A stretch of 64,000 bases of DNA, from assembly GCF_029955155.1 (NCBI RefSeq), contig NZ_JAPNOZ010000011.1:434001-498000 (forward strand), read 5' to 3'. Position numbers and translations under genes: made by a program. This document shows, in pieces, positions 50,114 through 53,843 of the stretch (the first letter of the stretch is position 1; each line of letters begins with the position of its first letter). A model generated the notes under the pieces. The model was not told the origin of the DNA. It made no database searches and worked only from the letters and a program-made list of their open reading frames with translations. Source of the stretch: Psychrobacillus sp. NEAU-3TGS. Lineage in GTDB: Bacteria > Bacillota > Bacilli > Bacillales_A > Planococcaceae.

Positions 50114-50202
50114 CCTGGATGAAATTAAAGATGCCGTTCCTTATGCTACTTGAAAAAAGTTATCCACCTGTCTAAATCTTCCATAGTTTCCTAACCAATA
50201 AT

Positions 50203-50240
50203 AAAAGCTCGAAAATTCAAAGTTGAATTTTCGAGCTTTT
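50203..50240. terminator. bidirectional terminator
   Basis: A perfect 18-bp stem (50203-50220 with 50223-50240, ending GCTTTT), just after the stop of the isoprenoid-synthase gene. Confidence 0.9.
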
Positions 50241-50257
50241 AACGTTTTACTTTTCTC

Positions 50258-52615
50258 TTAATGATCACGATTTATTATATAGTCCAATAAATGTTTTAAG
50301 AATGGTACATTACGAGGTACTTCTTGCAAAGCTTCCATAGCTAGACAATAATTTTCCCACATCTCTTTTTCTGCATCTTCCTGCCCCAGTATCGATACGA
50401 AAGTAGAATTATTGTTTTCCGCGTCTTGGCCAACTGGTTTTCCGAGTATGCTAGTATCGCCATCTACGTCTAGGAGATCATCCTTTATCTGAAAAGCAAT
50501 ACCTGCATGACGGGCAAATTTTTTAAGAGCATCCATTTCCCCTTCATTTGCCTTTGAAAGAATTGCTGGCATGATCAACGAAGCTTCGAAGCCTATTCCT
50601 GTCTTATAAAAGCACATCATATTCAGCTGCTCCTGTGTCAATTGCTTCCCTTTAGATTCTAAGTCCATCGTTTGCCCTCTACACATATTTGCAGTAGTGT
50701 TGGCTGAATATTTTATGAGTTTTAGTACAGTACTCGAATCGAACTGTTGGAGAGAGGCTTGCTCCTCTACAGCCTTTTGGGTAAGAAATAGACCAGTTAA
50801 TTCAGCAACGGCAACGCTTTGCATCTCATGGAGTGTTCGACGTCCTCTACGTGTGGAAGCATTATCCTGGGATGGAAGATCGTCAAATATTAAGGATGCA
50901 GTATGCATATATTCTAGTGATTTTAATAATGGCTCGATTGCTGATTTATTTAATCCATAAGCGTTTACACCCATTAACCAAGCTAGTATTGGTCTTAAAC
51001 GCTTCCCTTCCCCATCTAGACTATAATTTGCACCATCGATAATTTGGTCTTCCATTATAAATATGTTTTCCTTTTTAGGAATATTTAGCATGTCATTTAT
51101 TTCATGACGTAAGCATTTGATCGTATTTATAAATTCTTCTTTTTCTATTCGTTCATTTTTCAAAATAGTAATCATGTGATCGCGCAGCAGCTTATCGAAG
51201 AAATCTACGTCATCTGCTTTTCGGACCATATTTTGAATAAGCTTATTGAATGTAGGGTCTCCACCAGCAAATATCCCCATCACTTCGTTGTATCTTTTAG
51301 TCCCTACTCGTTCTTTATAACGTTTTAGTCCATTTATAGCTCGGTCCAATATAACCTCACAAGTCTTTCTATCTGAGTTATACACATTATGAATCAAATT
51401 AGAAATAACCGTCCAGTACAGTTCAAATGGATTGATTAGATCCGAACGTGTCTCGTGATATTTCAAATAATAGGTATAGGGAGTTACCGCACCATCCTTC
51501 AAATCATCAAACATATCAGCAAAATCATCCGCAAGCTGATTATAAATGCCATAAAAGAATGTTCGGCTATCCAATTCCTTATCTTCAGAAGCACCGATTA
51601 CTGAACGAACAATTAATCGGGAAGAGGAAGATTTTAATATGACAGGTATATAAAGCTCTTCATTCGTATAATTTGGGTTGGATAAATCCTTTACTCGGTC
51701 TACTTCCTGGGAATGAAAAAACACATAGGATTGCTCAAAAAAACCTATTTTTGTCTCTTGTTGCTGATGGGCACTTATAAAGTCAAAGGCATCTCGAAGT
51801 TCCGAATGAATATACTTCATTAATTCTATATTGTTCCCAATCCACTTACCAAATTCTGGGACAATCCCAGTTGTAAGAGTGGTACGTATTAAATCCGTAT
51901 ATTGTTTTTCTTCTACATCCGATAATATCTTCGCATCGAGAAGATCATCAATAAATGGATAAGTTAGTCCATATGAGTAGCCAAGCCTAATAGCCTTATC
52001 AAGTCTTATAGTACGTTCCTTAGAGCTCGTATCCTCGTTCATCTCTTCTATTTCTTGCATAATTACACCAGCAATTATTTTAATAAGCTTTCTCTGGGCT
52101 TGCTCAGCATCCATCCCTTCAGGAATGTTCTCAGATACGGTCTTTAACTTGTTTAGTACCCAAATCAGTCCCGGTTCAACACCTTCTTTTTGGGCAAGGC
52201 GATACAGTCCTGCCATACTAAATGCCTTGTTTTTATTTTCTGTAGTAAGGTCAATCTTTAAATTATCTACTATGCTTTTGATTCTGTTTAGTGTATCAGG
52301 TGAATCAAGCGATTTGCCTAAATCACGCATAAAAATATAGGAAATGCTTCGATCGAGGTAATTTTCAAGTTTGCCTGTATAATTTAGCCATTGTATATAA
52401 GGATGATACTGACGAGGATCAGGTTTTCTTTTTCCACGTGAAAACAAGGAATAATAATGAATATGATTGCGTTTCCACAATCGAATATCTTCTGTTAAAG
52501 TTGAGACATAAATCTTTTGCTCCACTTGCTCATAAAGTGATTTAAAATAGTGTTCAGCTTTTTGCTCCGCCTGCCGATAGCAAGTATCAGCATTTATTAA
52601 TAATTCCTTGATCAT
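50258..52615 (-). CDS. large two-domain polyprenyl synthetase / putative bifunctional terpene synthase
   Basis: 785 residues. The C-terminal third (about 500-785) is a trans-prenyltransferase: GEGKRLRP (about 535-542), first Asp-rich motif FDDLPSQD (578-584), TRRGRRT, second motif KDDLLDVDGD (about 728-737). The N-terminal 500 residues are helical and carry two more Asp-rich segments, IDDLLD (Asp 223/224/227) and NQLADDFADMFDD (359-371), about 140 residues apart as expected of a second class I isoprenoid-synthase domain. Ordinary prenyl synthases are about 290-330 aa. ATG 52615 has AAGGTG 9 nt upstream. Monocistronic, product unknown. Confidence 0.85.
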   Translation of the reverse strand: MIKELLINADTCYRQAEQKAEHYFKSLYEQVEQKIYVSTLTEDIRLWKRNHIHYYSLFSRGKRKPDPRQYHPYIQWLNYTGKLENYLDRSISYIFMRDLGKSLDSPDTLNRIKSIVDNLKIDLTTENKNKAFSMAGLYRLAQKEGVEPGLIWVLNKLKTVSENIPEGMDAEQAQRKLIKIIAGVIMQEIEEMNEDTSSKERTIRLDKAIRLGYSYGLTYPFIDDLLDAKILSDVEEKQYTDLIRTTLTTGIVPEFGKWIGNNIELMKYIHSELRDAFDFISAHQQQETKIGFFEQSYVFFHSQEVDRVKDLSNPNYTNEELYIPVILKSSSSRLIVRSVIGASEDKELDSRTFFYGIYNQLADDFADMFDDLKDGAVTPYTYYLKYHETRSDLINPFELYWTVISNLIHNVYNSDRKTCEVILDRAINGLKRYKERVGTKRYNEVMGIFAGGDPTFNKLIQNMVRKADDVDFFDKLLRDHMITILKNERIEKEEFINTIKCLRHEINDMLNIPKKENIFIMEDQIIDGANYSLDGEGKRLRPILAWLMGVNAYGLNKSAIEPLLKSLEYMHTASLIFDDLPSQDNASTRRGRRTLHEMQSVAVAELTGLFLTQKAVEEQASLQQFDSSTVLKLIKYSANTTANMCRGQTMDLESKGKQLTQEQLNMMCFYKTGIGFEASLIMPAILSKANEGEMDALKKFARHAGIAFQIKDDLLDVDGDTSILGKPVGQDAENNNSTFVSILGQEDAEKEMWENYCLAMEALQEVPRNVPFLKHLLDYIINRDH

Positions 52616-52781
52616 TCCACAACACACCTTCACTTTATGTTCTCACTTAACTATCACGAAAAATAGTTGCTAATTAACAATCTATTCTTTTAAGAATCTC
52701 AGAATTCCTTTTTTATATATAAAAATGCAAGGCCTGACTCCATTTCAATAGAATCAAGCCCTTATCATTTATTATTTCAAC

Positions 52782-53843
52782 TTAAGACTTTCTTTGCTCT
52801 TCTGCTTCCCATCGCTCTATTTCACTTCGAACTAACGGTGCCACTTCTTTCCCAAGAAGTTCGATTGCTTTTAAAACTTCATGATGAGGCATTGATCCTA
52901 CCGGTACATGAAGCATAAAGCGTGTGATACCCACGTTCTTACGAAGAAAAATAATTTTTTCAGCGACCGTTTGCGCATCTCCTACATATAAAGCTCCTTC
53001 TAGGCTACGGGCATTATCAAACGTCGCACGAGTATAAGGACCCCATCCGCGTTCTCTACCTAAAACATTCATAGCAGCTTGGGTCGATGGGAAAAATTTA
53101 TCTGCTGCACTTTCGGTACTTTCTCCAACGAATCCATGTGAGTGCGACGCAACCGTCAGCTTTGAAACGTCGTGTCCTGCCTGCTCCGCCGCATTCTTAT
53201 AAAGTTGCACAAGTGGTGCGAACTGAAGTGGACTACCACCTATAATAGCTAGAACTAGCGGTAATCCTAGAACACCCGCACGAACAACAGATTGTGGAGT
53301 TCCACCACTAGCAATCCAAACCGGTAGAGGATTCTGTACAGGTCGTGGATACACGCCTCGATTTTGAATCGGCGCTCGATGCTCTCCGCTCCAAGTAATC
53401 ATTTCTGAATCTCGTATTTTCAACAATAAATCTAGCTTCTCATTGTATAATTCATCATAATCTTTTAAATCATACCCAAACAGAGGAAAAGATTCGATAA
53501 AAGAGCCACGTCCAGCCATAATCTCTGCACGACCATTGGAAATCGCATCTAACGTCGCAAATTCTTGGAATACTCGCACTGGATCGTCCGAGGACAAAAC
53601 TGTTACCGCACTTGTCAATCTAATACGGCTTGTTTGAGATGCTGCTGCAGCTAGTATGACGGCAGGCGCAGAAGCAGCGTAATCTTTCCGATGATGTTCA
53701 CCCACACCAAATACATCTAATCCAACTTGATCGGCCAATACAATTTCCTCTACTACTTCGCGAATACGTTCGGCATGACTAGATACTTTTCCTGTTTCCA
53801 CATCTGACGTCGTTTCTACAAATGTTGTAATTCCGATTTCCAT
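52782..53843 (-). CDS. LLM-class flavin-dependent oxidoreductase
   Basis: 353 residues, luciferase-like TIM barrel: FGVGEHHRKDYAASAP (with the EHH segment typical of the F420/FMN group), AVTVLSSDDPVRVFQEFA, NGRAEIMAGRGSF and IASGGTPQSVVRAG. It uses a reduced flavin; substrate unknown. It follows the TetR gene by 23 nt, so the TetR protein likely controls it. ATG with GGGAGA upstream. Confidence 0.9.
   Translation of the reverse strand: MEIGITTFVETTSDVETGKVSSHAERIREVVEEIVLADQVGLDVFGVGEHHRKDYAASAPAVILAAAASQTSRIRLTSAVTVLSSDDPVRVFQEFATLDAISNGRAEIMAGRGSFIESFPLFGYDLKDYDELYNEKLDLLLKIRDSEMITWSGEHRAPIQNRGVYPRPVQNPLPVWIASGGTPQSVVRAGVLGLPLVLAIIGGSPLQFAPLVQLYKNAAEQAGHDVSKLTVASHSHGFVGESTESAADKFFPSTQAAMNVLGRERGWGPYTRATFDNARSLEGALYVGDAQTVAEKIIFLRKNVGITRFMLHVPVGSMPHHEVLKAIELLGKEVAPLVRSEIERWEAEEQRKS

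Follow-up and report, generated by a model that had tools for sequence, protein, structure and literature searches.

Enzymes that combine a prenyltransferase and a terpene synthase in one chain have been described in fungi. The accessible parts of the papers on these fungal prenyltransferase-terpene synthases (PTTS) describe an N-terminal class I domain and a C-terminal prenyltransferase in an architecture called unique to fungi (PMC8307374), a flexible linker of ~70 residues in PaFS (PMC8190136) and chimeras that also make C30 products (PMC9177416). In bacteria, structure-based mining of actinomycetes has uncovered the non-canonical class I synthases of classes ID-IF (PMC11234867). A 2025 survey of terpenes in endospore formers names, in its accessible text, squalene-hopene cyclase, phytoene/squalene synthase and phytoene desaturase, and the words bifunctional, chimeric and fusion are absent from that text (PMC12654598). 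Here, we describe a gene for a two-domain isoprenoid synthase in Psychrobacillus sp. NEAU-3TGS (genome size 4.42 Mb), located in a stretch of 64,000 nucleotides (contig NZ_JAPNOZ010000011.1, positions 434,001 to 498,000), hereafter the window.

The gene is read on the minus strand from an ATG at 52615 to a stop codon at 50258-50260 (Table 1). The open reading frame (ORF) bears out the 785-residue product named in the original prediction, made from the DNA letters, to which the follow-up adds the strand. The four motifs quoted there are all located in the product: IDDLLD (residues 222-227), NQLADDFADMFDD (359-371), FDDLPSQD (577-584) and KDDLLDVDGD (711-720). Our best explanation, to which we assign a probability of about 0.58, is a self-sufficient two-step isoprenoid enzyme in which a C-terminal prenyl-diphosphate synthase is joined to a divergent class I, cyclase-like N-terminal domain.

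Rather than the arrangement opposite to that of fungal enzymes, as first proposed, the order of domains is the same, with the cyclase-like part N-terminal and the prenyltransferase C-terminal (PMC8307374, PMC8190136, in the accessible text). By analogy with PaFS, MpMS and TvTS, which have this order in one chain, the conversion of isopentenyl diphosphate (IPP) and dimethylallyl diphosphate to a terpene would be common to both groups (PMC8307374, PMC8190136, PMC9177416, accessible parts). The protein differs from the fungal PTTS in being bacterial, in having an N-terminal domain outside the recognised terpene synthase families (no family match above threshold), in its second motif, which is DDxxDxxxD and not NSE, and in its extra ~130 residues of N-terminal helices. 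A predicted continuous helix (residues 470-509) replaces the ~70-residue flexible linker that the accessible text reports for PaFS (PMC8190136).

Residues 490-785 are, by sequence and predicted fold, a complete trans-prenyl-diphosphate synthase, in agreement with the original prediction. The domain passes the gathering score of PF00348 (173.4 bits against a cut-off of 27), and it matches the NCBIfam FPPsyn model (E 6.1e-62, 209 bits, under that model's cut-off of 275) as well as solved farnesyl diphosphate (FPP) and geranylgeranyl diphosphate (GGPP) synthases (best E 1.2e-40). The full-length AlphaFold2 model (predicted local distance difference test score, pLDDT, 85.0; predicted template modelling score, pTM, 0.81) has C-terminal helices at 557-578, 601-620, 627-654, 661-686 and 691-718. 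Among the 50 Foldseek matches listed for it, FPP, GGPP and related synthases reach a template modelling (TM) score on the target of 0.80-0.90. Both Asp-rich motifs, spaced by 134 residues in all 69 aligned orthologues (the window's included; the basis of all counts out of 69), are accompanied by RRG and by GKRLRP, which we take to be the isopentenyl-diphosphate-binding motif. Motifs and fold are shared with the type II bacterial FPP/GGPP synthases (IspA, CrtE; PF00348), from which the domain differs in being fused and in the residue at position 573.

Work on Bacillus FPP synthase reportedly gave the rule that a large aromatic side chain five residues ahead of the first Asp-rich motif limits the product to C15. 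The equivalent of A573 is Tyr in 1rtr, 5ayp, 3uca and the IspA-like enzyme of the same genome, Met in the GGPP synthase Sy-CrtE (7mxz) and Ala in the genome's HepT-like enzyme. As an invariant Ala stands where the compared FPP synthases have Tyr, the sequence suggests a product chain longer than C15, i.e. C20 or longer. Since the genome also encodes the IspA-like and HepT-like enzymes, so named by motif reading, the fusion protein is its third prenyl synthase.

The N-terminal part carries a second pair of Asp-rich motifs, and here too the original prediction, which placed them about 140 residues apart, is sustained: the spacing is 140 residues in 64 of the 69 orthologues and 141 in the other five. 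Seven aspartates (D223, D224, D227, D363, D364, D367 and D371) are identical in all 69. Among 20,000 shuffles of residues 1-489, at least two DDxxD motifs appeared in 2.2% and a pair 120-160 residues apart in 0.2%. Invariant columns make up 23.2% of residues 131-470, compared with 14.6% of residues 1-130, and a candidate diphosphate-contacting segment, K328-R337, falls close to where prenyl synthases have their KT motif. Held against the NSE/DTE consensus of terpene synthases as generally known, DDLLD fits DDxxD and DDFADMFDD has the NSE spacing, but with Asp where Ser/Thr and the final Glu would be expected.

The second motif also has the form Q..DD..D found in prenyl synthases, in 69/69 N-terminal and 69/69 C-terminal domains, which would suit a second chain-elongating prenyl synthase. 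We consider such a function very improbable, because the IPP-binding features are missing: GKxxRP is found in none of the 69 N-terminal domains and RRG in only two (missing in 67). With features of the diphosphate and metal sites kept and those of the IPP site missing, the N-terminal domain probably acts by ionising a prenyl diphosphate and not by extending it, by analogy with the families named here, from which the roles of its residues are also inferred.

Modelled with AlphaFold2 from an alignment of 69 sequences, residues 1-489 are all-helical, with 22 helices (pLDDT 86.5, pTM 0.86). Helices 198-216/219-227 end in the first Asp-rich motif and are followed by helices 233-249, 263-283, 286-307 and 318-340 and then by 346-366/368-373, which hold the second motif; from residue 131 on, this order resembles that of the C-terminal domain in the predicted models. 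A Foldseek search of the PDB with these residues gave 444 matches to E 10, and those listed, 50 in number, comprise class I isoprenoid synthases only (probability 0.95-1.00), namely prenyl-diphosphate synthases and one dehydrosqualene synthase. The models are consistent with a class I assignment and with a divergent fold.

The dehydrosqualene synthase (3vjd) among these 50 would fit an N-terminal domain that, in the manner of squalene, phytoene and dehydrosqualene synthases, condenses two prenyl diphosphates head to head, and an Asp-motif spacing of ~140 residues also fits the squalene/phytoene synthase family. We judge this improbable, given that PF00348 is the sole Pfam family matched, at E up to 10, by the N-terminal half of the protein encoded in the window, and that the families listed for the 69 sequences (25 of 54) do not include SQS_PSY (PF00494), although the SQS_PSY model does find a separate gene in the same genome. 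As a side observation, a Foldseek search of viral models (BFVD) gave 192 matches, of which two of the 50 listed exceed a probability of 0.5. Both (A0A6G8MX44 and A0A481ZCB8) are uncharacterised proteins of ~300 aa, from Cedratvirus and Pithovirus, and their TM-target scores (0.61 and 0.57) exceed those of all 50 solved structures listed (at most 0.46).

Many relatives of the bacterium carry the fusion. Of the 299 candidate stretches in the named collection, 282 code for proteins related to some part of the query, and 80 loci were kept in which the match runs from residue 8 or earlier to residue 781 or later. Their full-length ORFs (783-834 aa) come from Bacillales, including Paenibacillus, and from Clostridium, the closest named relative being that of Psychrobacillus lasiicapitis (92% identical). 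Within the window's family, for which 261 genomes were searched, the N-terminal domain is matched in 71, and an open frame of at least 786 aa is present in 67 of these, the full-length match being verified for the fetched loci. The remaining four are a ComQ-like protein (G047), a 40-residue remnant (G172, L135:1983-2102), a copy with residues 184-258 in another frame and the main frame open (G224, L136:1651-4014) and a 660-aa frame (G247). The copy in G224 may reflect an assembly error, because its genome is 83% complete with 9% contamination. The gene is present in 18 of the 19 same-genus genomes listed and looks dispensable, since one lacks it. In the phylum sample, 9 of 398 genomes match, eight through a long open frame and one through a stand-alone homologue. 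Purifying selection acts on each part of the protein, with a ratio of non-synonymous to synonymous substitution rates (dN/dS) of 0.06-0.21 in six pairs, in several of which synonymous sites are near saturation.

In a quick tree, three Clostridia-labelled copies cluster (support 89) inside Bacillaceae, with weak nesting forks (83-84), and the sequences suggest a transfer of the gene to Clostridia. A copy on a contig titled Arthrobacter beigongshangensis (L073) falls among Sporosarcina, and this title is probably wrong, because G166, a genome of the window's family, encodes an identical protein (L032).

The ComQ-like match bears on the main rival to cyclase-like chemistry, in which the N-terminal domain would transfer the prenyl group to an acceptor other than IPP (peptide, aromatic compound or other small molecule), with the C-terminal domain supplying the donor. 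ComQ, a divergent member of the prenyl-synthase superfamily, prenylates the ComX pheromone. The protein found (L122:3809-4675, minus strand; PF00348 E 6.9e-15), from a genome of the window's family, was matched by residues 303-391, a local match that spans the second Asp-rich motif. Its E of 6.6e-4 for one genome is unremarkable with 261 genomes searched. A pairwise alignment (N-terminal domain 294-392) brings K328 and the second Asp-rich motif into register, but R333 and R337 are not shared, and the ComQ-like protein is stand-alone (288 aa), with NDxxD where the N-terminal domain has DDxxD. No recurrent acceptor-making neighbour was found among ORFs of at least 80 aa, shorter peptides lying outside this scope. 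We regard transfer to another acceptor as unlikely, though it is the foremost alternative, and a cyclase-like outcome would, by analogy, be the simplest for this domain.

Three stand-alone homologues of the N-terminal domain were detected: P0002 (G613, 397 aa, running off its contig), L148 (419 aa) and L151 (411 aa). Both Asp-rich places align with those of the N-terminal domain, the first being DNxxDD; they differ in having no fused prenyl synthase, in not keeping R333 and in having Lys at R337. None matches Pfam, NCBIfam gives nothing above cut-off, and a profile of P0002 and L148 found no match among solved proteins. The same profile matches five of the eight fused proteins of the phylum sample (E 6e-9 to 1.5e-3). 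From these comparisons and the lack of any family match, the N-terminal domain seems to be one member of a larger family, as yet unclassified, and to have become fused with a prenyl synthase in the present lineage. The stand-alone proteins may, on the same sequence comparisons, represent another class I-like family of Firmicutes that is likewise unclassified and distantly related to the N-terminal domain. Transposase-like ORFs, identified by reading of sequence, lie near L148 and L151.

The small subunits of heterodimeric prenyl synthases act as regulatory partners, and the N-terminal domain might likewise be a silent or regulatory partner that sets the chain length or oligomer state of the C-terminal domain. 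The predicted continuous helix that couples the domains and the poor global superposition on solved enzymes would fit such a role. A silent domain would, however, be expected to lose its Asp-rich motifs, so the regulatory explanation is disfavoured by the invariance of the seven aspartates and of K328, R333 and R337 in 69/69 orthologues, and the three stand-alone homologues also retain two Asp-rich motifs. We place it slightly below transfer to another acceptor in likelihood.

Several observations weigh against a cyclase-like class I enzyme. The expectation that the N-terminal half would belong to a terpene synthase family was not borne out, as no curated Pfam model reached its threshold with residues 1-489 (PF00348, 11.6 bits against a cut-off of 27). 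On the supporting side, PF00348 touches 38 of the 69 N-terminal sequences (E up to 1; best E 3.3e-4), though these matches are not independent because the sequences are ~70% identical. When ten orthologues were scanned singly, five matched PF00348, three of them over about residues 277-381, ending at the second Asp-rich motif; the other five gave no match, and two of the five matches put the first motif near the second motif of the profile. Terpene_syn_C_2 is touched by one of the 69 (E 0.015), and AvrM-A, a chance family, by 15 (best E 4.5e-4), so weak family matches count for little. Compared by sequence with solved proteins, the N-terminal domain gave five chance-level matches (best E 0.051) and no isoprenoid enzyme. 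An origin of the N-terminal domain by internal duplication of the C-terminal one was tried and rejected, as hhalign and blastp detect no similarity.

The structural comparison is similarly weak. The same 50 PDB matches have E 1.6e-3 to 5.8e-2, TM-scores of 0.25-0.46 and root-mean-square deviations (rmsd) of 13.7-18.6 Å, which makes the global superposition poor, and they include no terpene cyclase, whether from bacteria, plants or a fungal chimera. The matches listed for this half thus agree with a class I fold in kind and are weak in score. The N-terminal profile matches 10 of the 398 phylum genomes, and one of these (G402, E 0.003, 99-aa frame) is chance-like. The P0002 and L148 profile misses three of the eight fused proteins, including the window's own, and the similarity between the N-terminal domain and the stand-alone homologues is alignment-dependent: with two sequences hhalign gives a probability of 94.6% (E 7e-8), which falls to 17% (E 3e-4) when three are used. 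No conserved partner or tailoring genes were found across the 80 loci among ORFs of at least 80 aa.

In the proposed two-step enzyme, the C-terminal domain would add IPP to an allylic starter and so build an all-trans prenyl diphosphate of C20 or longer, which the N-terminal domain would then take up. There, the diphosphate would be bound through Mg2+ on D223/D224/D227 and D363/D364/D367/D371, together with K328/R333/R337, and be ionised, and the cation would be quenched intramolecularly to give a terpene (a cyclic hydrocarbon or alcohol). The original proposal of a prenyl synthase fused to a class I cyclase or condensing domain stands as to a complete prenyl synthase fused to a second helical, class I-like domain with conserved Asp-rich motifs, for which cyclase activity is a proposed function. 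The fusion is real, conserved and unclassified. Its most likely identity is a bacterial fusion of prenyltransferase and terpene synthase in which the class I domain is divergent.

The non-canonical classes IB-IF (BalTS, AsR6, PeuTPS, SalTPS, NpsTPS) likewise have a class I-like fold hidden from sequence models, and PeuTPS is encoded, like the fusion, by a solitary gene; none is described as a prenyl-synthase fusion (PMC11234867). The motifs of class IB (DYLDNLXD, DY(F,L,W)IDXXED) and class ID (D(N/D), ND, RXXKD) differ from DDLLD/DDFADMFDD, so the printed motifs set the N-terminal domain apart from these two; IE and IF, whose motifs are not in the main text, are possible classes for it (PMC11234867). 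Membership of class IB (DUF2600/YtpB/BalTS) was also rejected on the family model, as PF10776 is unmatched in the genome at E <= 0.001, with the Bacillus subtilis control found; nor does PF13249 reveal a squalene-hopene cyclase there at the same threshold. Searches of the open-access literature listed no report of a bacterial chimera, and the phrase 'bacterial bifunctional terpene synthase' was not found in open-access PMC literature, an earlier description in subscription journals being possible. We put forward tentatively, at somewhat less than even odds, that this is the first bacterial chimera, spread across Bacillales and passed to Clostridium, whose N-terminal domain founds a further non-canonical class with free-standing Firmicutes cousins and whose terpene, C20 or longer, is new to these bacteria.

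The gene had been described as solitary, which its surroundings confirm. A second terminator-like hairpin (52729-52762) lies on the side opposite the one in Table 1, so that the gene is flanked on both sides; the region holds four such hairpins, compared with 1.7 in shuffles. A promoter scan gave seven sites, compared with 10.7 in shuffles, and none at the gene start. When neighbouring ORFs of at least 80 aa were clustered across the 80 loci, the largest family, ABC-transporter ATPase-like by reading of sequence, occurred in 21. The upstream gene in the window (52782-53843, minus strand) reads as a luciferase-like oxidoreductase, by sequence without family search, and a terminator-like hairpin stands between it and the fusion gene. 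This neighbour occurs in 8 of the 80 loci and is the nearest clustered upstream gene in five, all Psychrobacillus, at most ~650 bases from the fusion gene. A mobile-element origin was rejected: the N-terminal domain and P0002 are unmatched in the plasmid collection and in PHROGs (E 0.01), viral contigs being outside the search, and 34 phage records match, the 20 listed reaching the C-terminal region only (lowest query start 482).

Table 1. Coordinates of the fusion gene, its domains and motifs, and related features (window positions unless a locus is given)
Feature	Position	Strand	Basis or remark
Whole gene, two-domain isoprenoid synthase, 785 aa	50258..52615	-	ORF; full-length relatives in 80 named loci
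N-terminal helical extension, residues 1-130	52226..52615	-	AlphaFold2 helices 9-33, 35-51, 70-79, 83-97, 106-124
N-terminal class I-like alpha domain, residues 131-469	51209..52225	-	AlphaFold2 and Foldseek
First Asp-rich motif DDLLD, residues 223-227	51935..51949	-	D223, D224, D227 in 69/69; end of helices 198-216/219-227
Candidate diphosphate-contacting segment K328-S-S-S-S-R333-L-I-V-R337	51605..51634	-	K328, R333, R337 in 69/69
Second Asp-rich motif DDFADMFDD, residues 363-371	51503..51529	-	Preceded by Q360
Continuous helix linking both domains, residues 470-509	51089..51208	-	AlphaFold2 full-length model
C-terminal trans-prenyl-diphosphate synthase domain, residues 490-785	50261..51148	-	PF00348 E 6.3e-51; Foldseek
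GKRLRP, residues 537-542	50990..51007	-	GKxxRP in 67/69 C-terminal and 0/69 N-terminal domains
A573, fifth residue before first Asp-rich motif	50897..50899	-	Ala in 69/69
C-terminal first Asp-rich motif DDLPSQD, residues 578-584	50864..50884	-	D578/D579 in 69/69
RRG, residues 589-591	50843..50851	-	69/69 C-terminal domains
C-terminal second Asp-rich motif DDLLD, residues 712-716	50468..50482	-	DDxxD in 69/69
Terminator-like hairpin 3' of gene	50202..50241	-	18 pairs, loop 4
Stand-alone protein, ~400 aa	L121:3-1193	-	Two Asp-rich motifs, no Pfam match
Stand-alone protein, ~400 aa	L148:1495-2754	+	Two Asp-rich motifs, no Pfam match
Stand-alone protein, ~400 aa	L151:1486-2721	-	Two Asp-rich motifs, no Pfam match

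If the two-step reading is true, at least 80 sequenced genomes, mostly of Bacillales, hold an overlooked single-gene terpene pathway, in a layout of fused prenyl synthase and cyclase previously called unique to fungi in the accessible text of PMC8307374. It would add a class I enzyme class invisible to sequence models and provide an independent prenyltransferase-cyclase fusion for the study of substrate channelling. Terpenes not yet known may then come from this Bacillus-like bacterium and many of its relatives.

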